A stretch of DNA of 27,069 nt from a virus: the IMG/VR virus record IMGVR_UViG_3300042288_001473, positions 1 to 27,069 of that record; one strand, 5' to 3'. Below the pieces are notes generated by a model. That model was not told the DNA's origin. It saw only the letters and a program-made list of their open reading frames with translations, and ran no database searches. The translations under genes and the position numbers were made by a program. Of the stretch, positions 6,747 to 26,429 are shown piece after piece (within the stretch, counting starts at the first letter, position 1; the number at the start of each line of letters is the position of its first letter).

Positions 6747-7538
6747 TCAGGCGACGATGAGCCCCAGCTGCAGCGCCGCTGCCTCCAGCGCCTTCCGCGA
6801 CCGCTTCCGCCTAGGTGCCTTCGGCTCAGGCGTGACCAGCGGCACGGTGATCTGTAGACCCAGCTGCAGCACCTCCGACAGCCGCCGGCCCTGCAGGATT
6901 GCCTTCACCCGGCGGTGGAACTGCTCCATCGGCCCGGCAGGGTATGCCAAACGTCTGGGGTTGGCCCACCACTTCAGCAGCAGCCCGCGATCGGCAGAAT
7001 GAATGTTCCCCCATGCGGTGTTGACCAGATCCTTGAGCGGATCAATGCGGGGCAGCTCCAGCTCAGGTACGTCGTAACCATCAGCGCCATGGATATCGTC
7101 AAGGTTGGCGGTGCCGGTCATCGCGCCAAGCATCTCTGTGAGATCAGCGATGGTGAGGCCTGAGCGCTCGGCAACATCCTGAGCGGTCAGGTCGGGATCA
7201 CTCATCAGGCGCTGCACCTTGCCCCACTTCTCCCGCCACTTTGTTGGAAACTTCATGGCGAACCCACGATCGCGGAACCAGTGCAGGATCTCCCCTTGGA
7301 TGAACGGCACCACGATGGTGGACAAGGCGTAGGGCTTGCCTGAACCTGGGTTGAGGCGGTCGGGGTCATACCGCCGGCAGCCACGGATCAGGCCGACGTA
7401 GGCAATCGCCTCCAGCTCGTCATAGGGCTGGCCGGTCTTGCGATGGAACCGCCAGGCGGACTGCCGTGCCAGGCCGAGGTTGGCGGTGATCAGATCCTCG
7501 CTGATCGCGGTGGGGGTGGGGAAGGTGGTTGCGGTCAT
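6747..7538 (-). CDS. Phage-encoded sigma-70-like factor
   Basis: 263 residues. Region 2 of sigma-70 is clear: NLGLARQSAWRFHR (20-33), AYVGLIRGCRRYDPDR (46-61), then YALSTIVVPFIQGEILHWFR (70-89), equivalent to the core-binding and -10-recognition helices. Region 3-like sequence follows (KWGKVQRLMSDP, then DLTAQDVAERSGLTIADLTEML, 105-138). A canonical region 4 is not evident; the C-terminal 100 residues (SADRGLLLKWWANP, RRVKAILQGRRLSEVLQLG) are divergent, and the basic stretch APRRKRSRK precedes the end. It probably redirects host RNA polymerase to phage promoters. The start at 7538 overlaps the upstream stop by 4 bp. It lies between TerL and portal genes, so it is co-expressed with late genes. 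Confidence 0.8.
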   Translation of the reverse strand: MTATTFPTPTAISEDLITANLGLARQSAWRFHRKTGQPYDELEAIAYVGLIRGCRRYDPDRLNPGSGKPYALSTIVVPFIQGEILHWFRDRGFAMKFPTKWREKWGKVQRLMSDPDLTAQDVAERSGLTIADLTEMLGAMTGTANLDDIHGADGYDVPELELPRIDPLKDLVNTAWGNIHSADRGLLLKWWANPRRLAYPAGPMEQFHRRVKAILQGRRLSEVLQLGLQITVPLVTPEPKAPRRKRSRKALEAAALQLGLIVA

Positions 7539-9667: not shown

Positions 9668-9984
9668 GACACCAGCTTCGCCAGCTTGGCGGCAGTATTG
9701 ATTGCACCTAGCGCAATGTGATACTGCTTCGCCTTGCGTGCTTCAAGCTGTAGTGTGCTGCACTGGCTGAGCAGATCAGCGATCATCTGCGGGCGTTCTA
9801 GGTCCCAATCAGCACGTAATTGATCGCGTGCGGCGGCGAGGTAATCACTGCAGACGCGATCACCAACCCCCCATTTCTCAGCAGCAAACCGCACACAATC
9901 AGAACGGCGGCCACCATGCGCGATGATTTCCGCGAACTTGCGAACGCGAATCTCGAACTCTGCAGAGGATGACCTGGCTGCCAT
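9664..9984 (-). CDS. terS: Terminase small subunit (putative)
   Basis: 106 residues. The N-terminal half contains an HTH-like segment (VRKFAEIIAHGGRRSDCVRF, then KWGVGDRVCSDYLAAARDQL). The C-terminal half is a helical oligomerisation region (QMIADLLSQCSTLQLEARKA, then ALGAINTAAKLAKL). Size, fold and a 4-bp overlap with the TerL start support a packaging-site recognition subunit that hands DNA to TerL. The start ATG 9984 shares one base with the stop of the Mom-like gene. TerS proteins are poorly conserved, so the assignment rests mainly on context plus this layout. Confidence 0.75.
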   Translation of the reverse strand: MAARSSSAEFEIRVRKFAEIIAHGGRRSDCVRFAAEKWGVGDRVCSDYLAAARDQLRADWDLERPQMIADLLSQCSTLQLEARKAKQYHIALGAINTAAKLAKLVS

Positions 9985-10766
9985 CAGGTAGCCACCGGGA
10001 TGGGATTGGAGCGTCCGGGTCGGTTCTGCCCCGCCGCCTCACTGGTGGACCCAGGAGTCGCCTGCTTCGGACGCATGCTCTGTCCACGATACATGGATGC
10101 CCCCATCTCGTCGATCTTGCTGAACGGCAGGATTGGCACGGTTAGCCGTTCGCGGGCGGCGGGGTTCAGGAAGTAGATGTATTTCAGCTGAAACCCTATT
10201 GCCGGGACCGCTCCTAGTATCCGTGCGTTTTTCTGGTAACTCCAGGCGCTTGATATGTCTGGCCTAGCCCTCAGTTCAGCAAGCATTAACTTCCCGGTCA
10301 TGCAGAGATTGTTGACCACTCTGCCATCTGGCAAGCGATAAAGACTTTTGTTTTCCTTGATGTCTATCAGATGAAAGCCTGAAGCCCTGTAAATGGTTCC
10401 GTCTCCGCATTGGCACGCATCTGAAAAGCTGACAATCCACTCAATCCAGGGGTAGGACCCCTTTATTAATCGAAAGGCGATAGATAGAGAGCGGCTTTCG
10501 CTGTTGCGAGGAAGGCGATCAGAGAAAGCCATCCTGTTTAGCTCCATCGCTCCAGTCCATTGCGTACCCTCTACCAGTGGCAGCATTTCACGCTGCTTCA
10601 TGCTGTTACCGAATGACATTACCCCTTCGGCTTTGCCTTTCCAAAACACGCCTAAATGCAAGCGGCTGTTGTTCACTGGCTTGCCACTGTAGTGATAGCG
10701 GCGTACTAAATCTCTGGCTGCGGTTGCCCCGATCGGCGCCACTCGCAGATCCTTAGCTGAGCCCAT
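9984..10766 (-). CDS. mom: Mom-family DNA adenine modification protein
   Basis: 260 residues matching phage Mu Mom: RRYHYSGKPVNNSRLHLGVF (near 22-41), EGVMSFGNSMKQREMLPLVEG, ELNRMAFSDRLPRNSESRSLS, a GNAT-like core, then WIEWIVSFSDACQCGDGTIY and RASGFHLIDIKENKSLYRL. Mom converts adenine in phage DNA to N6-(methylcarbamoyl)adenine and blocks many restriction enzymes. Mu-type Com, the zinc-finger translational activator of mom, is not seen upstream; instead a ParB-like gene overlaps it. Start ATG 10766 has GGGGTGG upstream; GTG 10775 is the alternative. About 10190-10720 is visibly AT-richer than its neighbours, suggesting recent acquisition. The C-terminal 40 residues (after YRGQSMRPK) are a Pro/Gly-rich tail absent from my memory of Mom. 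Confidence 0.88.
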   Translation of the reverse strand: MGSAKDLRVAPIGATAARDLVRRYHYSGKPVNNSRLHLGVFWKGKAEGVMSFGNSMKQREMLPLVEGTQWTGAMELNRMAFSDRLPRNSESRSLSIAFRLIKGSYPWIEWIVSFSDACQCGDGTIYRASGFHLIDIKENKSLYRLPDGRVVNNLCMTGKLMLAELRARPDISSAWSYQKNARILGAVPAIGFQLKYIYFLNPAARERLTVPILPFSKIDEMGASMYRGQSMRPKQATPGSTSEAAGQNRPGRSNPIPVAT

Positions 10767-11412
10767 GGTCGCCACCCCAGCTCAGGAACAGCTCGGCCAC
10801 TCTCGCCAGTGCGTTGCCGTTGCTGTTCTCGTTGCCCGTCTCAATAAATGGCCCGATCGTCTTGGCCTTTTCGATCGCCTCCTTGATGATCTCGGCCTGA
10901 TCGTCGTGCAGGGTGAAGGTCATCTGCTGGATAGGCTCGCGGTCGCCTGATGGCAGGTCGGGCATGCCGTCCAGCTCATCCACCTCCGGCGCCAGCAACC
11001 CGCTTAGCTCATCTGCTGACCATCCCAGCAGGCTCAGGTCGAAGTCATCCGATCGCAGATCGTCAAGCTCGGAGGTGAGCAGGTCCAGATCCCAGCCAGC
11101 GTTGAGCGCCAGCTTGTTGTCCGCGAGCACGTAGGCGCGTTTCTGCGCTGGTGTGAGGTGATCCAGCACCACGACGGGCACGGTGGCCATGGCCAGCTCA
11201 CGGGCGGCCTGTAGGCGGCCGTGGCCGGCGATGATGCCGTCCTTGCCGTCCACCAGGATCGGGTTGGTGAACCCGAACTCCTGAATCGAGGCAGCGATCT
11301 GCGCCACCTGCTCAGCGCTGTGGGTGCGTGCGTTGCGGTCGTAGGGGACCAACCGATCCAGCGGCCAGTGCTCAATGCGCTGAGCGGCCTGGATGGCTGC
11401 GGCGGCTGGCAC
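10753..11412 (-). CDS. ParB/Srx-fold (ParB-like nuclease domain) protein
   Basis: 219 residues starting at GTG 11412. The ParB N-terminal domain spans about 12-110: WPLDRLVPYDRNARTHSAEQ, IAASIQEFGFTNPILVDG, then GIIAGHGRLQAARELA, where GHGRLQAA is the phosphate-binding motif of the fold, and AYVLADNKLALNAGWD. In phages this domain is often fused to, or next to, DNA methyltransferases. The C-terminal part carries MTFTLHDDQAEIIKEAIEKA and TGNENSNGNALARVAELFL. It overlaps the Mom-like gene, so a role in the same DNA-modification step is inferred, such as target binding or cofactor handling. It is not a plasmid-partition ParB: there is no HTH domain and no ParA nearby. Confidence 0.8.
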   Translation of the reverse strand: MPAAAAIQAAQRIEHWPLDRLVPYDRNARTHSAEQVAQIAASIQEFGFTNPILVDGKDGIIAGHGRLQAARELAMATVPVVVLDHLTPAQKRAYVLADNKLALNAGWDLDLLTSELDDLRSDDFDLSLLGWSADELSGLLAPEVDELDGMPDLPSGDREPIQQMTFTLHDDQAEIIKEAIEKAKTIGPFIETGNENSNGNALARVAELFLSWGGDHGLS

Positions 11413-11451
11413 GGTGGCGGTGCGGTGATCGGCGACAGCTTACCCCGTCCC

Positions 11452-11475
11452 GTAGCGGTTGTGCAACCGCACTAC
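11452..11475. promoter_or_regulatory. Operator-like inverted repeat before parB-like gene
   Basis: An imperfect inverted repeat with CGGTTG-TG-CAACCG at its centre and GTAG...CTAC flanks. It contains a GTaGC-N6-GCAAC copy of the class I operator. No class I -10 is correctly placed on either strand; TAAGCT (11438-11443, leftward) is a possible -10 for the parB-mom-terminase operon. Confidence 0.35.
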
Positions 11476-12338
11476 ACGGCAGGCTCCAGGGCGATGTCCA
11501 CGCCATCAGGGCCGGGTGTGAGGCGCAGCCAGACACCACCGAGCGATTTGGGCATGACGATCCGCTCGACGGCCCAGCCGGCGCCCTCCTGGAACTCTTC
11601 CTTGTAGGTGCCGGTTTGGACGTGCCAGCGCTGTGCGATGCGCTGGCGGCCGGCGGCCGTGAGGCGGTAGCAGGGGTGGGAAACGATAGTGCGTTCGTGG
11701 TTGTGGCCGTTGACGTAGAGGTCGGCCTCTGCGACGGCTGCATAACGCATGCCACCGAGGGTGCCCTTGGTCACGATGCCGCCCCATGCACCGTGATGGA
11801 AGAACAGGGCAACGCGGCGGATGCGTTCACCACGGGTTTTGCCAGGGCGGTAGAAGGTGAACCAGATCCAGCCCTGGTAGCGCATGTGCTCGACGGGTGA
11901 GCTGTAGCGATCCCGCATGAGGCGGGTCATGTTGCCAAGCGGGTCGATTTCGTTGTGGTTAATGATGGCGGTTTCGTGGTTGCCATCGCTCATCATGAGG
12001 ATGGTTTGCGCGAAGGGCTTGAGCCATTCCGCGCATTCGCTGAATACCAGATCGAAGTAGTTGCTACCAAGGTGCTCAGGGCGTATTGAGGACTTAGAAC
12101 CACGACGATCTTTCTTGCCTTGCATCAGGCAAAGGATGTCACCAAAGAAGAGGGCATGACCGCCACGGCCTTGAACGTGCTTGAGGTGTTTGCGTAGCAG
12201 TTCGCGGTCGCAGTGTGGGTTGTCGAGGTGAATGTCTGATGCGAGCAGGAACTCGTGGGGATCAGCGTGGCTGTAGGGGATGCGGATTTCCAACAGCTCA
12301 GGGCTGTGGCGGATCAGCTGGAGCTTGCTGAGCGTCAC
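11472..12338 (-). CDS. Calcineurin-like metallophosphoesterase
   Basis: 288 residues from GTG 12338. All five metallophosphoesterase blocks are present: SDIHLDN (D35, H37), FFGDIL (G66-D67), SDGNHE (G119-E122), FFHHG (H181/H182) and NGHNH (G211-H214). These bind two metal ions and act on phosphodiesters such as nucleic acids or cyclic nucleotides. Phage members are found among replication and recombination genes and are presumed nucleases or phosphatases. The frame stays open upstream to a TTG at 12425, but that extension contains a GTTGC-N6-GCAAC repeat and low-complexity sequence, so the GTG is preferred. It lies downstream of the putative origin region. Confidence 0.85.
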   Translation of the reverse strand: MTLSKLQLIRHSPELLEIRIPYSHADPHEFLLASDIHLDNPHCDRELLRKHLKHVQGRGGHALFFGDILCLMQGKKDRRGSKSSIRPEHLGSNYFDLVFSECAEWLKPFAQTILMMSDGNHETAIINHNEIDPLGNMTRLMRDRYSSPVEHMRYQGWIWFTFYRPGKTRGERIRRVALFFHHGAWGGIVTKGTLGGMRYAAVAEADLYVNGHNHERTIVSHPCYRLTAAGRQRIAQRWHVQTGTYKEEFQEGAGWAVERIVMPKSLGGVWLRLTPGPDGVDIALEPAV

Positions 12339-12383
12339 CCGGTTTGTTGCTGTTGCTGCAGTTTGCCTGCCCAGAGCGGATGT

Positions 12384-12399
12384 GTTGCGGGTGGGCAAC
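12384..12399. promoter_or_regulatory. GTTGC-N6-GCAAC operator copy
   Basis: GTTGC GGGTGG GCAAC matches the inverted repeat found in class I promoters. It lies 46 bp upstream of the metallophosphoesterase start. No convincing -10 was found at the usual spacing, so it may be an operator without a class I promoter. Confidence 0.4.
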
Positions 12400-12444
12400 G
12401 GATCCAGGTGGTTGCCAACTTCCAACCTCTGCCAACCTTTGTCT

Positions 12445-12478
12445 TAGGAGGCAGGAAAACGGCTATTCCTGCCTCCTA
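12445..12478. repeat. Perfect 13-bp inverted repeat
   Basis: TAGGAGGCAGGAA (12445-12457) and TTCCTGCCTCCTA (12466-12478) are exact complements around an 8-nt loop. Neither strand has an adjacent T-tract, so a simple intrinsic terminator is unlikely. An origin structure, or a leader hairpin of the metallophosphoesterase mRNA, is possible. Confidence 0.6.
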
Positions 12479-12632
12479 CCCCCTATCTCCCCTCTTTTTA
12501 TCAATTCTTCTTAAGAGGTTAGAAGGTTAGCAAGGGTAGAAGACGCCATGCGCCGCAGCCGATTTGCCGCTGCTAACCTCTGCCGACCAGGTTGGCAATC
12601 CCGTCAGTCCAGGGTGGGTCCCAGGATGAGAC

Positions 12633-12662
12633 AAAAAAAGAGGTCAGCAAGTTGCCGACCTC
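12633..12662 (-). terminator. Intrinsic terminator after primase-helicase gene
   Basis: Read leftward: GAGGTCGGC, loop AACTT, GCTGACCTC (one G-U pair), followed directly by seven Ts. It lies 24 bp beyond the 3' end of the primase-helicase gene and ends the 15759-to-12686 transcript. Both stem arms contain the GGTYRGCA octamer. Confidence 0.85.
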
Positions 12663-12685
12663 ATGGGGCGATGGTTAGCAGCTGC

Positions 12686-15025
12686 TCAGCCCTTGGTGAA
12701 CACCCAACGTTGGACACCAGCAACGCTGCGCCGAGCCTTGCCGTAGCCGAGTTCGCGCATGATGGTGGCCACCTGCATTTGATCGGCGCGGGTCTGCCGT
12801 TCAGTGGGCTTAGCGATGGCTTTGCTGAGGATCGTCTCTGACGTGAGTTCAGCGTTGAAATTGCTAGGCCTGGACAGCCAGTCAACGATGGGCGTCTTCC
12901 ACGGGTTTTCCACCTGATAGTTTTCGTTTTCTTGGCTGACGATCGTGGCCAGTTCAGGCGGCAGGAAGTTGGCTTCACCGTCGCGGTAGGCCTTGACGGC
13001 ACCAGCCCAGATGGCGTCCCGTTCGGCCATGAGGTTAGGCGTGTCGATTGGATTGGTTTCGGTGCAGGTGGTAGGAACAACCCAGAACCGGCGGTTACCG
13101 GTGTCGTCTTGCAGGAAACCGGTTGAGCGGTTAGTTGAGCCGACGATGATCCCGCGCCTAGGGAATGCTTCGGTTGCTTTGCCGTAGGGCACGCGGAAAA
13201 GGTCGGTCGATTGCGAAAGGAAAGATTTGATCTGGCCGGCGTGCTTTCGGCCCATGATGTGGTCGAGTTCCGCCCATTCCATGATCCATGAGCGGTGCAG
13301 AACCATTAGGTCGTCTTTGCTGGAGATGTCGCCTAGGGCATCAGAAAAGAACGCGCCGCCGAGGGCAGACCAGAAGGATGATTTGCGGGCGCCTTGCTCA
13401 CCCATCAGGACGCAAGCGGTATCGTGTTTGCAGCCCGGCTCAAAGATCCGTTTTACGGCACCGATGAGGGTGCACCGGATCATGTGGTCGTAGATGGTGG
13501 TTTTGCCTAAGTCTGCGTCTTCGGGCCTGAGGTATGCGCTTGCTAGGCCGCCGATGTAGGCCGGCTCAACCGTGGCGGCGACGTGCTCCAGGTAGAGCGC
13601 CACGGGGTCGTAGGGGTGTTCGTGCGCGACCTGGACTAGGCAGTCCACCGCGAGCTCCTTGGAGACCTTGTAGCCCTGCTCAGCGAGCGAGAGGTAGAAC
13701 CGCTCCGCGCCTTCCAGCACGGCGCCGTCCATCTCGATCTGTTGAGAGAAGCGGTTGAACCGGATCCGGTCGGAGCCAGCCTGTGCGCGAAGCATGGTGA
13801 GCAGCTCAGCTGCGTCCACGGGCTGCAGCTTGCCGGGTGATGACGAGATTCCTTGGTTGAGTTCAGAGACCTGCTTGGCCAGGCCTTTGATCTTCGCCTT
13901 TGTGCGCTCGAGATCTGGCGAGCTTGGTTGGAGCCCCTTGAGCGTGGATCGTGCTTCCTTTAGTTCCGACTCCAGTTCACCGATCGTCTTGGCGTTAGGC
14001 GAGGAAGCCAGAGCAGTGGTTCTAGGCGGCAGCGCCGGCCTGGCAGTCCGGGTGTGGAACCTCAGCCGCGATTCGAGCTTGTCGAGGGGGGTGCCGGGGT
14101 GTGGGTTGTGCGCGGCCGCGCCATCGAAGCGCTTGCGGGCCTTGCGTGCGTCGAAGTCCCTGGCCTTGGCCTGAGCTGCTGAGATGTGCTGCTCAAAGGC
14201 CTCAGCCGCTGTGATGTCGGGGCGATGGCCCTGATCGATGATCCATTGCTCGGTACCCTGCAGGTCGAGGGCCAGCTTGAGCTGATCGTCGTTCCACTGA
14301 CCAGGCGTGCCGCCAGTTTCAACGAGCGTGCGGCTGTCAAGAGTGATGAAGTCCAGCAGCGGCAGGGTTGCTGGGATGATCGGCTGAGGTGTGACGGTGA
14401 GCAGCGGTGCAGGTTGCGGCTCGGGATCCTCAAATAACAGGGCGATCAGCGCCTCTGGCGCCTCAGCAACGCCGGCTTCTGCGGGTGATCGGCCTTTGAT
14501 CCAGCGGTAGCTGCCGGTGATGGGGTGAGCGCCGATGACGACGGACTGGTGACGATTCCAGCGAAGGTCGAGCTGCTCAGCCTTGCCGTCAGCGTCCACC
14601 TTGCCGGTGTCGAAGACGCGGCGGTTACGCATCCTGGGCCAGTAGCGCTCAGGCACCGTGAACAGCACCTGAAAGCGGCCATCGCGGCCAGAGGTGCAGG
14701 TGGCGGTTTTGGGGAGGCTGCGGGGCGGGATGCCTAGTTTTTCGAGCTGCTCAGTCGCTGATATGCCGTCGTGATCTAGGAACAGGAGGCCACCTGAAAT
14801 CGGTCCAGCGATGACGCCGATGGCTTTGGCCTTGACGATCCTCTTCTCAGTCTTCTCTCCTACCTTGAACTCGATTTCGCTGCCAATGGTGATCTCTTTG
14901 GCGGCTTGCTCCTTGGTGAGCGGGTTGGCTTGCCAGTTGTCTAGGTAGGGCCGCTTGTTGCCGCTGACGGCAACGAGTCCCCAGGATGCTGGAAGCTCCT
15001 GGAGCTGTTCTAGGAGCGTTGGCAT
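12686..15025 (-). CDS. Primase-polymerase/helicase, VapE (VirE) family
   Basis: 779 residues. The N-terminal part (about 1-200) resembles bifunctional primase-polymerase (primpol) domains: GVIAGPISGGLLFLDHDG with D84/D86 as likely metal ligands, then SGRDGRFQVLF and HQSVVIGAHPITGSYRW. Residues about 345-395 form a charged coiled coil (IGELESELKEARSTLKGL). The C-terminal part is a VapE/VirE-type helicase: CVLMGEQGARKSSFW with a degenerate Walker A (542-549), SWIMEWAELDHI as Walker B (about 579-590), and GIIVGSTNRSTGFLQDDTGN. It would prime and unwind phage DNA. Its ATG at 15025 lies 2 bp after the HNH stop, and a strong terminator follows the gene. Confidence 0.88.
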   Translation of the reverse strand: MPTLLEQLQELPASWGLVAVSGNKRPYLDNWQANPLTKEQAAKEITIGSEIEFKVGEKTEKRIVKAKAIGVIAGPISGGLLFLDHDGISATEQLEKLGIPPRSLPKTATCTSGRDGRFQVLFTVPERYWPRMRNRRVFDTGKVDADGKAEQLDLRWNRHQSVVIGAHPITGSYRWIKGRSPAEAGVAEAPEALIALLFEDPEPQPAPLLTVTPQPIIPATLPLLDFITLDSRTLVETGGTPGQWNDDQLKLALDLQGTEQWIIDQGHRPDITAAEAFEQHISAAQAKARDFDARKARKRFDGAAAHNPHPGTPLDKLESRLRFHTRTARPALPPRTTALASSPNAKTIGELESELKEARSTLKGLQPSSPDLERTKAKIKGLAKQVSELNQGISSSPGKLQPVDAAELLTMLRAQAGSDRIRFNRFSQQIEMDGAVLEGAERFYLSLAEQGYKVSKELAVDCLVQVAHEHPYDPVALYLEHVAATVEPAYIGGLASAYLRPEDADLGKTTIYDHMIRCTLIGAVKRIFEPGCKHDTACVLMGEQGARKSSFWSALGGAFFSDALGDISSKDDLMVLHRSWIMEWAELDHIMGRKHAGQIKSFLSQSTDLFRVPYGKATEAFPRRGIIVGSTNRSTGFLQDDTGNRRFWVVPTTCTETNPIDTPNLMAERDAIWAGAVKAYRDGEANFLPPELATIVSQENENYQVENPWKTPIVDWLSRPSNFNAELTSETILSKAIAKPTERQTRADQMQVATIMRELGYGKARRSVAGVQRWVFTKG

Positions 15026-15027
15026 CG

Positions 15028-15429
15028 TCAGTTGCGGGTCTGGTAACGAGCGAACGCCTCACGGCGCCGGTGGATCTCTGCGTAGCACTCAGCGCAGACC
15101 AGTTGAAGGTTTGCCGGGTCGTCAGTGCCGCCATGCTTCACCTCGATGATGTGGTGCACCTGCAGGCACACCGAAGGCCGCAAGAGCTTGAGGTGATCCT
15201 CTTGGCGCATGCAGTGCCAGCAATGGGAGCGCATGGCCTCAGGCAGCAGATGCTTGAGGCACTCATTCGTTTTCCGCCGTGGCTTGCGGTCTTCAGATGG
15301 CTTAGGAATCCAGAGGAAGCCGTGCTGCGGGCAGCGGATTGATCCCCAGTGTTGAGTGTCTGGCCTGGGGTTGAAATCGCAAGGGTGACCGCACTTGGGG
15401 CAGTCATGAAGCGAGGGGTAATCGCTCAT
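15028..15429 (-). CDS. HNH endonuclease with N-terminal zinc ribbon
   Basis: 133 residues. The C-terminal HNH core is CWHC (70-73), VHHIIEVKHGGTDDPANLQL with H92/H93 and N107, then CAEC (112-115) and H120. The two Cys pairs form the structural zinc site, and the second His of HH is the general base. The N-terminal 45 residues add a separate zinc-ribbon-like motif (CPKCGHPC at 10-17, IRCPQHGF near 31-38), an uncommon extension. It lies between the ribbon-helix-helix regulator and the primase-helicase in one operon, so a role in replication or recombination, or homing, is possible. Confidence 0.85.
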   Translation of the reverse strand: MSDYPSLHDCPKCGHPCDFNPRPDTQHWGSIRCPQHGFLWIPKPSEDRKPRRKTNECLKHLLPEAMRSHCWHCMRQEDHLKLLRPSVCLQVHHIIEVKHGGTDDPANLQLVCAECYAEIHRRREAFARYQTRN

Positions 15430-15432
15430 GGA

Positions 15433-15759
15433 TCAGCCCTGTCTGCGGATGTCGCGGGCGATCAGGTGGCGGATGAATGCGGCCCGGCTGCAGTCGTGGC
15501 GGGAGGCTTGGAGGTCGAGGTGATCAACGAGGGTGTCAAGCATCTCGAAGGTGGCAGCGCGGGGGCTGTCGCCTGGCGGGACTGGGGTGAGGGCGACGTG
15601 GGTTGTGTCGCGGTCGCGGTCGGTGATCACCAAGCGGCGCAAGTACGCGGCACGAGAGCAGCCTTCGTAGTGGGCCTGAGCGTCGAGGTGCGCGAGGTGC
15701 TCAGGTGGGAGCTCCAGGAAGATGGATCGCTTACCGGCGACTGGGGGCCAGGTGGGCAT
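15433..15759 (-). CDS. Tandem ribbon-helix-helix-like protein, putative repressor
   Basis: 108 residues with two copies of a ribbon-helix-helix-like unit. Copy one: SIFLELPPEHLAHLDAQAHY then GCSRAAYLRRLVI. Copy two: ATFEMLDTLVDHLDLQASRH then DCSRAAFIRHLIA. The matching CSRAA[YF][LI]R.L helices show an internal duplication. RHH proteins bind DNA through a beta ribbon and often repress their own promoter. ATG 15759 is chosen because the -10 of promoter P9 (15788-15793) lies inside the longer frame. It is divergent from the helicase operon and the two promoters share an operator, so it is the best candidate for the regulon's controller. Confidence 0.72.
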   Translation of the reverse strand: MPTWPPVAGKRSIFLELPPEHLAHLDAQAHYEGCSRAAYLRRLVITDRDRDTTHVALTPVPPGDSPRAATFEMLDTLVDHLDLQASRHDCSRAAFIRHLIARDIRRQG

Positions 15760-15787
15760 GGGTGCAGCGTGGGTGGTGTTGATCCGC

Positions 15788-15816
15788 ATTATAGGGTTGC
15801 AGTTGCGCAACCGCAA
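15788..15816 (-). promoter_or_regulatory. Class I phage promoter P9 (leftward, divergent)
   Basis: -35 TTGCGG (15811-15816), a 17-bp spacer and consensus -10 TATAAT (15788-15793). This is the strongest-looking promoter in the window. It overlaps P8 on the other strand: each promoter's spacer is formed by the same palindrome. It drives the ribbon-helix-helix, HNH and primase-helicase genes. Confidence 0.8.
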
Positions 15817-15825
15817 CGCTAGGAT
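15797..15825 (+). promoter_or_regulatory. Class I phage promoter P8 (rightward, divergent)
   Basis: -35 TTGCAG (15797-15802), a 17-bp spacer beginning TTGCGCAACCGC and -10 TAGGAT (15820-15825). It overlaps P9 almost completely, so the two should compete for polymerase. It drives the small gene and helicase operon at 15888-18053. Confidence 0.72.
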
Positions 15826-15887
15826 GTGAGAGCCACCGCACCGAAGCCCCGCTCCCTGACGATGCCGACCACTGCCCGGACCAGGCG

Positions 15888-16022
15888 GTGGGTCTCAATC
15901 GGCCTCTCATCTGTACGGGTCCCATCGAGGACTGCCGCTGGTTCCAGGTTGATGACCATCCGGGCGGCAGCAAGCGGGGTGGGCGGTGGCTGTTATTCAC
16001 CACACACGCACCACAGCCATGA
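15888..16022 (+). CDS. Small protein upstream of SF2 helicase, 44 aa
   Basis: The frame ends in TGA overlapping the helicase start (ATGA, 16019-16022), and its sequence is clearly protein-like: RPLICTGPIEDCRWFQVDD, HPGGSKRGGRWLLFTTHAP. The start is uncertain. GTG 15888 is the only ordinary start codon downstream of the P8 transcription start in this frame, but protein-like sequence continues upstream (ESHRTEAPLPDDADHC), so a non-standard start is possible. It has no recognised family. It should be co-translated with the helicase. Confidence 0.5.
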   Translation: MGLNRPLICTGPIEDCRWFQVDDHPGGSKRGGRWLLFTTHAPQP

Positions 16023-17422
16023 CCACCCCCACCCTCCGCCCCTACCAGCAAACCTTCACCGCCGACATCTCCACCGCCCTGCGTATCCACCGCCGCGTGG
16101 TGGGCACGATGGCGACCGGCTCAGGCAAGGGCACGGTGGCTGCGCACATGGCGGCCACTGCTGCCGAGCGCGGCCACAGGGTGTATGTGCTAGCGCATCG
16201 AAAGGAGCTGATTGAGGATCTCTCGGGCCGGATGAGCAGTCATGGCGTACGCCATGGTCTGATCGCCATGAATCGAAGCATGGACCTGAGCCAGCCGGTC
16301 CAAGTGTGCAGCGTGGACACCTTGGCCAGGCGGCTGCACAAGGTGCCGGCGCCAACGCTGATCATTCAGGACGAGGCGCACCATCTGATCGAAGGGAACA
16401 AGTGGGGCAAAGTCATCGCCGCATGGCCCAAGGCCTATCTGGTGGGGCTCACGGCAACACCACAGCGGCTGTCAGGTGAAGGCCTGGGTGAGGGTTACGG
16501 CGGATACTTCCGGCATCTGGTGCTAGGTCCTACCGCTCAGTGGCTGACCGATGAAGGGTTCCTTGCCAGGGCAAAAGTGCTGGCACCACCAGGGATCGAC
16601 CTGTCTGGTATCAAGAACTTTGACACGCCGACCGGCAAAGCGAAGGCCTCCCAAATCCTCGGCACTCGCGAAGCGATGGGCGATCCTGTTGGTCATTATC
16701 AACGGGAGATTGCGCCTATCCACAACGGCACGGTGCTGGGATTTTGCGTCAGCGTCCCGCATGCCACAGCGATGGCTGAGCTGTATCGAGAGGCCGGAAT
16801 CCCTGCAGCGGCTTTGGATGGCAAGACCGATCCAACCCTGCGCCGGCAGATGATCAGCGACCTGGGTGATGGAGTGCTCAAGGCGCTGTTTAGCTGTGAA
16901 ATCGTGAGCGAAGGCACTGATATTCCCAGTGTCGCAGGCGTGCAGCTATTCAGGCCCACAGACAGCCTGTCGCTATATCTCCAGCAGGTAGGCCGTGGGT
17001 TGCGGAAGTGCGACGGCAAGCCGTATGCCGTGGTGTTGGATCACGTTGGCAACAGCCACCGGCACGGCCTCCCGACCGATGATCGTGAGTGGAGCCTAGA
17101 AGGCAAGGTTGGCCGCCAAGGTGGCGAAAAGTCGCCATCGGTAAAGGTCTGCCCCCAGTGTTTCAGCTGCATGCCCTCGGCAAAGGCTGTGTGCCCCGAC
17201 TGCGGCCACCAGTTCACGCCTGAGCGGCGAGAGATCACGACCGTGGACGGTGAGCTGGTTGAGATCCAGCGGCGGGAAGCCAAGCGCGAACAAGCCCAAG
17301 CCCAGACCGTCGAAGACCTAATCGCGATCGGCAAACGCCGGGGCATGAAAAACCCCCGTGGCTGGGCCCGGCACGTGATGGCGGCCAGGCAGGCGAAGGG
17401 CAACTGGAGGGCGGTGGCGTGA
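16019..17422 (+). CDS. Superfamily 2 DEAD/DEAH helicase with C-terminal zinc finger
   Basis: 467 residues from ATG 16019, overlapping the upstream stop. Motif Q region LRPYQQ (6-11), Walker A ATGSGKGT (32-39, Gly in place of the usual Thr), DEAH (118-121), GLTATP (143-148), EGTDIPSV (298-305) and QQVGRGLRK (322-330), so both RecA-like domains are complete. A CPQC...CPDC zinc finger (378-395) and a helical, basic C-terminus follow. This is the SSL2/RadD-like helicase family frequent in phages, acting in replication, recombination or repair. The K37-G38 Walker variant should still bind phosphate through K37. Confidence 0.92.
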   Translation: MTTPTLRPYQQTFTADISTALRIHRRVVGTMATGSGKGTVAAHMAATAAERGHRVYVLAHRKELIEDLSGRMSSHGVRHGLIAMNRSMDLSQPVQVCSVDTLARRLHKVPAPTLIIQDEAHHLIEGNKWGKVIAAWPKAYLVGLTATPQRLSGEGLGEGYGGYFRHLVLGPTAQWLTDEGFLARAKVLAPPGIDLSGIKNFDTPTGKAKASQILGTREAMGDPVGHYQREIAPIHNGTVLGFCVSVPHATAMAELYREAGIPAAALDGKTDPTLRRQMISDLGDGVLKALFSCEIVSEGTDIPSVAGVQLFRPTDSLSLYLQQVGRGLRKCDGKPYAVVLDHVGNSHRHGLPTDDREWSLEGKVGRQGGEKSPSVKVCPQCFSCMPSAKAVCPDCGHQFTPERREITTVDGELVEIQRREAKREQAQAQTVEDLIAIGKRRGMKNPRGWARHVMAARQAKGNWRAVA

Positions 17423-18054: not shown

Positions 18055-18381
18055 TCACGCCGCTTCCCGCTGCGCCGCACCCAGCCAGCCATCGATTCGT
18101 AATGCACGGTCGGGGCAGTGCCAGGCCTGAGCGGCGAACCACTCCCGCCAGCTGACGCTCGATTTAGCCAGGTTGCATCGCCGGCAGGCTGGCACCAGAT
18201 TCTGGGCCACGGTCAGGCCACCAGCGGAGCGCGGGATGACGTGATCCAACGTGTCTGCGCGTTCAGCACAGTAGGCGCACTGGTGACCCCAGGCCTCAAA
18301 GATTCGTGCTCTGAATCGGTGTTTGGTTGCTCGTTTGGTCTGGAGTTCGGTTTCATCGATCAGCGATCGGAACTCCGACAT
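18055..18381 (-). CDS. HNH endonuclease
   Basis: 108 residues with a compact HNH core: CAYC (35-38), TLDHVIPRSAGGLTVAQNLV with D46-H47 and N61, then CRRCN (66-70). This is the McrA-like HNH type with the C4 zinc site. Phage genomes often carry such a gene near lysis or packaging genes, where it can assist DNA cleavage at packaging. Here it is 3' of the endolysin gene, separated by 36 bp that include a CTACCGGTAG palindrome. Confidence 0.88.
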   Translation of the reverse strand: MSEFRSLIDETELQTKRATKHRFRARIFEAWGHQCAYCAERADTLDHVIPRSAGGLTVAQNLVPACRRCNLAKSSVSWREWFAAQAWHCPDRALRIDGWLGAAQREAA

Positions 18382-25467: not shown

Positions 25468-26429
25468 TCACTGACCGTTACGCGATCTATCACGGCGACT
25501 GCATCGAAGTGATGCAGGGACTGCCGAGCGAGTCCGTTCACTTTTCGATCTATTCCCCACCGTTCGCCGGCCTGTACGTCTACAGCTCAAACGAGCGGGA
25601 CATCAGCAACAACAACGACTATGATCAGTTCTTGCTTCACTACGGCTATGTGGTTTCACAACTGCATCGCCTGACACTGCCTGGCAGGTTGACCGCTGTT
25701 CACTGCTGCGACATTCCAACCGGCAACAGTGGACAGGATGCGCTGTTTGATCTGCCGGGCGCGATTGTGCGTTTGCATGAGCAGCACGGATGGCACTACG
25801 TGGCCCGCCACACCATCTGGAAAGAACCGCTATGGGTGCGCAATCGCACGATGGTGAAGAACCTGGCACATAAGACGATTGTGGATGATGCAGCTTTTGC
25901 TGGTGTTGCATCCGCTGATTATCTGTTGATCTTCCGCCGCAGCGGAGAGAACAAGATCCCCATCGCCAATCCGACCGGGCTTGACCATTACGCTGGAGAG
26001 TGTCCCATTCCGCAGGAGCTGCACCGCTATAAAGGCTGGAAAGGTAAGCAAACCGAAAACCGTTTCAGCCACTGGATCTGGCGTCGGTATGCCTCATCTA
26101 TCTGGGATGACATCAACATGGGCCGGGTTCTGCCGTTCCGTGATGGCAAGGATCCTGACGATGAAAAGCACGTTCACCCGCTGCAACTGGATGTGATCGA
26201 TCGTGCTATCTGCCTGCGGTCAAACCCCGGCGAGACAGTGTTAACTCCATTTATGGGTGTGGGCAGTGAGGTCTACGGGTCGGTGTCGCTAGGCCGCCGT
26301 GGTATCGGAATCGAGCTGAAGGAGTCTTACTTCAACCAAGCAATCAAGAACATGGAGATCGCCGTGGAGGACACCCGCGACCCTGACCAGGGCAGTCTGA
26401 TCAACCTCGATGAGATGGAGACCGCCTAA
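25458..26429 (+). CDS. DNA amino-methyltransferase (SPPF type, probably N4-cytosine)
   Basis: 323 residues. Motif IV YSPPF (32-36) comes first; SPP(F/Y) is more typical of N4-cytosine than of N6-adenine enzymes. The AdoMet-binding motif I lies near the C-terminus (NPGETVLTPFMGVGSEVYGS with FMGVG), followed by LGRRGIGIEL, so the motif order is that of the beta class. Between them lies the variable target-recognition part (WKEPLWVRNRTMVKN, KGWKGKQTENRFSHWIWRR). No restriction enzyme is adjacent, so this is an orphan modification enzyme of the phage, able to mask its genome or mark its replication. The start overlaps the helicase end. Confidence 0.9.
   Translation: MAVITDRYAIYHGDCIEVMQGLPSESVHFSIYSPPFAGLYVYSSNERDISNNNDYDQFLLHYGYVVSQLHRLTLPGRLTAVHCCDIPTGNSGQDALFDLPGAIVRLHEQHGWHYVARHTIWKEPLWVRNRTMVKNLAHKTIVDDAAFAGVASADYLLIFRRSGENKIPIANPTGLDHYAGECPIPQELHRYKGWKGKQTENRFSHWIWRRYASSIWDDINMGRVLPFRDGKDPDDEKHVHPLQLDVIDRAICLRSNPGETVLTPFMGVGSEVYGSVSLGRRGIGIELKESYFNQAIKNMEIAVEDTRDPDQGSLINLDEMETA

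Follow-up and report, generated by a model that had tools for sequence, protein, structure and literature searches.

The origins of PICIs lie immediately 3′ of the rep gene, consist of two sets of iterons placed around an AT-rich region, and replicate plasmids (PMC6092414). In SaPIs, the C-terminal domain of Rep recognises iterons downstream of its gene, and the C-terminal domain of the SCCmec protein Cch2 binds, in vitro, direct repeats located after its gene (PMC7581432).

The stretch of DNA analysed here in its full length of 27,069 bp, hereafter the window, is a virus record of 27 kb, from a freshwater siphophage of Synechococcus that resembles S-LBS1. An earlier note on this DNA had placed a candidate replication origin beside the primase-helicase gene, and this is the best-supported reading of the locus, whose architecture is kept in dozens of relatives. 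The repeat array is very probably the replication origin of this S-LBS1-like cyanobacterial siphophage, with the adjacent VapE as its initiator. The parts of the array are listed below, with their positions in the window.

12413-12532, minus strand: predicted core origin, two opposed iteron blocks separated by a 79-bp AT-rich/purine-rich spacer
12413-12437, minus strand: iteron block B, composed of GGTTGGCA (12430-12437), GGTTGGAA (12420-12427) and AGTTGGCA (12413-12420)
12438-12460, minus strand: conserved box GTTTTCCTGCCTCCTAAGACAAA, adjoining block B; one arm of the hairpin pointed out in the earlier note
12445-12478: perfect 13-bp inverted repeat (hairpin) with an 8-nt loop
12470-12505, minus strand: tract rich in purines (83% on this strand)
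12498-12516: AT-rich segment adjoining block A, 21% GC, at a position conserved in relatives
12517-12532, plus strand: iteron block A, composed of GGTTAGAA (12517-12524) and GGTTAGCA (12525-12532)
12571-12578 (minus), 12581-12588 (minus) and 12590-12597 (plus): accessory iterons
12633-12662, minus strand: intrinsic terminator of vapE, formed by the inverted iteron pair 12642-12649 (plus)/12653-12660 (minus)
12673-12680, plus strand: iteron nearest to the vapE stop, GGTTAGCA, 5 bp past the stop codon
12430 (minus), 12525 (plus), 12571 (minus), 12581 (minus), 12590 (plus), 12642 (plus), 12653 (minus) and 12673 (plus): starts of the exact copies of GGTYRGCA
12413 (minus), 12420 (minus) and 12517 (plus): starts of the near copies of GGTYRGCA

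Read in the direction of vapE, a first iteron is followed by the terminator pair, by three iterons (12597-12571) and then by the core, where the iterons at 12532-12517 precede the AT-rich segment, the purine tract, the GTTTTCCTGCCTCCTAAGACAAA box and the opposed iterons at 12437-12413. The AT-rich segment at 12498-12516 is likely the DNA-unwinding element. The terminator has a 10-bp stem (12640-12662) followed by a T run, and terminators built of iterons were also found in S-LBS1, L016, L018 and L028.

Compared with the SaPI/PICI origins, the array is likewise immediately 3′ of the initiator gene, its opposed iteron sets surround AT-rich DNA, and the initiator is of the D5/VapE type, the fold match of VapE being SaPI PriRep1. 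In its repeats and AT-rich stretch the array matches experimentally tested PICI/SaPI origins, and to that extent the layout that had been called typical of origins holds; the hairpin included in it does not, as it is lost in most relatives. Several differences from SaPI/PICI origins were found. The window has GGTNRG words, a purine tract and a CTCCTAAG box, and the likeness noted is one of layout. The core occurs in both orientations, and an iteron pair doubles as a terminator. Finally, the window is that of a phage, not of a satellite: it carries its own terminase, portal, head and endolysin genes, for which reason it was rejected as a PICI itself. By analogy, the array would be a phage version of a PICI-type origin, working like one.

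The putative origin of SCCmec Cch2 likewise has direct repeats past the gene of a D5-type helicase. It differs from the array in having only three 5-nt iterons, and its helicase is not joined to the polymerase in one protein. A classical iteron plasmid origin was considered and rejected: the window contains no exact match to the DnaA box TTWTNCACA, and no plasmid-type Rep was present among the Pfam matches of the initiator. Among phages, Foley et al. reportedly described in 1998 a non-coding element of a Streptococcus thermophilus phage with the characteristics of a replication origin; the array is also non-coding and origin-like, a likeness by description only.

The octamer GGTYRGCA was found in 8 exact copies within 251 bp (12430-12680), on both strands and with three near copies, in agreement with the earlier count. 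Over the complete 27,069-bp record, the count that had been proposed as a check, 16 copies were present versus 5.3 expected. The maximum per 270 bp was 8 in the window and never exceeded 3 in 500 dinucleotide-preserving shuffles, so that the density is, as had been claimed, beyond chance. No comparable density, which the earlier note had named as decisive against its reading, was found elsewhere in the window, and the array was the sole cluster in each of four related records of 22-36 kb. The AT-rich stretch noticed before is borne out: the lowest-GC 30-mer of the window (23%, 12495-12524) lies within the array. Rfam and tRNA searches gave no matches. Only the short length of the word speaks for a chance or compositional repeat cluster without function; this is refuted by the density above shuffles and by the conservation described below, and its probability is practically nil.

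Related VapE loci were then taken from viral contigs and genomes, 93 of them non-redundant. The 330 bp after vapE contained 860 GGTNRG sites in total, versus 212 from shuffles; in the adjoining upstream coding DNA, over 300 bp, there were 329. The location immediately 3′ of the initiator, which characterises SaPI/PICI origins, was thus found in the window and, over these 330 bp, among the 93 loci. When the region was compared in related phages, as the earlier note had advised, dozens of them had the same architecture after vapE: an iteron block, an AT-rich segment, a purine tract, a CTCCTAAG-like box and an opposed iteron block. The inner distance between opposed blocks had a median of 70 bp (range 58-87, 72 measurable loci), the window having 79. 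The iteron words share the core GGTNRG and differ around it: GGTYRGCA in the window, GGTTRGGCA in S-LBS1, and GGTAGGGCA, GGTTGGGAC, GGTTRGAA, GGTAGGAAC, GGTTRGTA and others in the remaining relatives. The genome paper of S-LBS1 does not mention repeats or iterons (PMC6157547). The end of the S-LBS1 record (MG271909.1, L087, 34236-34641) holds part of its own array a second time, the sequence from GGTTGGGCAGCTGCC onward being present in two copies; the duplication may be real, or may stem from assembly, if a circular contig was opened at repeats.

The gene past the array is metallophosphoesterase-like in the window, terS in S-LBS1, and a tail, neck or unknown gene elsewhere. As this next gene varies, the array belongs with vapE. 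The orientation of the core relative to vapE, scorable in 84 loci, was the same in 42 and inverted in 42, with about 8 changes on the VapE tree. An array tied to vapE, with a core placed in either direction, therefore points to an origin rather than an operator. The iterons could otherwise be operators by which VapE or another regulator controls vapE or the downstream operon, replication starting elsewhere; the array does lie between two co-directional genes, an inverted pair of its iterons serves as the vapE terminator, and VapE could autoregulate. However, a core flipping relative to the genes would not be tolerable for a promoter/operator, the downstream gene differs between phages, no sigma-70-type promoter was found in 11000-16200, and an AT-rich spacer between opposed blocks suits an origin. 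We consider operators unlikely.

The same neighbouring genes bear on another alternative, in which the array would be a pac site for the small terminase or a partition site for a ParB-like protein. In S-LBS1, terS is directly past the array, and in the window a ParB-like gene is found two genes downstream (10753-11412). However, the array is not consistently accompanied by either gene, the iteron word tracks the VapE C-terminus residue by residue (see below), and the S-LBS1 terminus is predicted at 25,643, its array being near 34.2 kb (PMC6157547). A pac or partition site is thus extremely unlikely. The ParB-like gene of the window stands beside a Mom-like DNA modification gene (PF25680), the two covering 9984-11412 on the minus strand.

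The perfect 13-bp hairpin at 12445-12478, which the earlier note had placed within the origin, does exist, and is the only one of that size in the window. Its right arm is kept in relatives as the CTCCTAAG box. The left arm is present in the window and, nearly complete, in L015 and L017 only; it is absent in L016, L018, L019, L030 and S-LBS1, where the right-arm box stays, and the L016 region folds no better than shuffles. Since only the right arm is conserved, the hairpin is clade-specific and not a defining part of the array, and it was rejected as the functional core.

Cumulative GC skew, another of the checks put forward earlier, brought no support for the origin and was uninformative: neither the window nor two related records showed a switch at the array. 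No end repeats were found in the record, which may be incomplete; another origin may lie outside it.

The gene preceding the array is, as first described, that of a VapE-type primase-helicase. Its relevant parts are the following.

12686-15025, minus strand: vapE, VapE-type primase-polymerase/helicase of 779 aa, predicted initiator (Prim-Pol PF09250, VapE PF05272)
12689-12937, minus strand: C-terminal domain of VapE, aa 697-779, a predicted winged helix and the predicted reader of the iterons (from covariation and AlphaFold2)
12737-12739, minus strand: codon of K763, which tracks iteron base 4
12725-12727, minus strand: codon of S767, associated with iteron bases 8-9
12710-12712, minus strand: codon of Q772, which tracks iteron base 7

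Distances between iteron words were compared with distances between VapE proteins at 81 loci with a clear array, chosen for having GGTNRG. When distance over the remainder of the protein was controlled for, the final 45 columns of the alignment followed the word with a partial r of 0.54 (Mantel permutation p = 0.0005), while the rest of VapE, with the C-terminus held constant, gave 0.014. Sliding windows placed before residue 690 remained near 0 (at most 0.15), and the C-terminus reached 0.57. Because the C-terminal codons adjoin the array, a linkage control was run. Synonymous differences in the same codons gave 0.03 with the word, versus 0.54 for amino-acid differences when synonymous distance was also held constant. 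Some ∼100 bp separate the C-terminal end of vapE from the array, and phages often exchange blocks, so the two might be exchanged together by recombination, another protein binding the repeats; this is very unlikely, as synonymous changes do not follow the word, and as the signal is on single residues, with steady base preferences over repeated changes. The conserved array, the architecture of its core, and the VapE C-terminus as its sequence-matched partner are supported by computation. Given that the word tracks the C-terminus of VapE, and neither the rest of the protein nor synonymous sites, VapE is likely the iteron binder, judging from the sequences compared; the binder proposed in the earlier note, the primase-helicase, is in this way supported.

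Since the loci had been selected for their arrays, and Mantel tests remove relatedness only in part, changes were also mapped on a tree for which the last 60 columns at the C-terminus had been dropped. At residue 763, 11 of the 14 changes shared a branch with a change of base 4, and at residue 772, 13 of 14 shared one with a change of base 7; such coincidence was never reached in 5,000 draws of random placement. Base 4 was T or C with K or Q at position 763, and A or G with R: purines were found in 37/37 cases with R, pyrimidines in 36/39 with K and 4/4 with Q. For base 7, the pairings with residue 772 were R-G (36/45), L-A (18/19) and Q-C (12/14). In 13 held-out loci of the near family, base 4 was a pyrimidine at 38 of 58 sites in K763 arrays and 3 of 32 in R763 arrays, with a weak signal at some of the K loci (L367, L490, L511), and with one clade containing several of the R loci. 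In distant VapE proteins (30-38% identity), the code fails at 763, R being found with T in L380, L402, L429 and L443. Owing to this inconsistency, the claim of a residue code is confined to the near family.

An AlphaFold2 model of VapE aa 430-779 (mean pLDDT 76.9) had as best fold match SaPI PriRep1 with dsDNA (7pds, E 1e-15), followed by the NrS-1 and D5 helicases. The C-terminal domain alone was modelled with a pLDDT of 87.9 as three helices and a beta-hairpin. A PDB fold search with this isolated domain yielded no significant match, the weak hits including winged-helix domains. In the model, which is without DNA, residues 763, 767 and 772 are placed on both strands of the beta-hairpin, and specificity therefore appears to be set by the wing rather than by the usual recognition helix. 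A code of the wing (763 for base 4, 772 for base 7, 767 for bases 8-9), with many single-residue switches accompanied by rewriting of the whole array, is rather probable. In L263, L265 and L269, the coding match of the VapE homologue spans ∼530 bp more DNA than those of close relatives do, which suggests an intein or another insertion within vapE.

As two residues change together with two iteron bases, the "address" of the origin would be largely readable from VapE, across about 80 related viruses. This covariation of the iteron word with the VapE C-terminus is new here. A literature search combining cyanophage, origin of replication and iteron gave a full-text match only to a Vibrio phage satellite. 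Geminiviruses are ssDNA plant viruses replicating by rolling circle, and their Rep is an unrelated protein, not a winged helix. Their likeness to the present case, described for begomoviruses, is that related viruses have different short iterons, which match the residues that give each virus's own Rep its specificity.

From the above we infer physical binding, melting, helicase loading and replication start, in the following manner. The C-terminal winged-helix domains of VapE would bind the GGTYRGCA iterons, and residues 763-772, in the beta-hairpin wing, would read bases 4 and 7-9. VapE subunits would gather on the opposed blocks 12413-12437 and 12517-12532, as one or two rings, and the AT-rich segment 12498-12516 would melt. 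The D5-type helicase would then load onto the strands thus exposed, with synthesis primed by the N-terminal Prim-Pol domain. The extra iterons close to the gene, terminator pair included, probably let more initiator bind, and through them the transcription of vapE may be coupled to that binding.

Within a large aquatic phage family the rep-adjacent iteron layout is common; it is also found at some bacterial VapE loci. Among distant VapE from bacterial genomes (∼30-38% identity), 13 of 64 loci had at least 5 GGTNRG sites just past the gene, with near-perfect arrays in L390 (GGTTGGGCAG, 11 sites), L396 (GGTAGGACG, 11 sites) and L429 (GGTTGGGAC, 10 sites). GGTNRG arrays after VapE were seen in L380, L390, L396, L402, L410, L423, L429 and L443, genome contigs mostly of Rhodobacteraceae and other Proteobacteria; they are likely origins of this type, belonging to prophages or satellites. 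The residue-base code raises a testable question, namely how an initiator and a dozen sites change specificity together. If the code is true, the origins of many uncultured phages could be located, and their word partly predicted, from the initiator sequence alone.

Other genes of the window were noticed. A phage RNA polymerase sigma factor is encoded at 6747-7538 (minus strand), and S-LBS1 also has one, at 22.0-23.0 kb. Two HNH endonuclease genes are present on the minus strand (18055-18381 and 15028-15429), one adjoining vapE on its upstream side, the other next to the endolysin gene.
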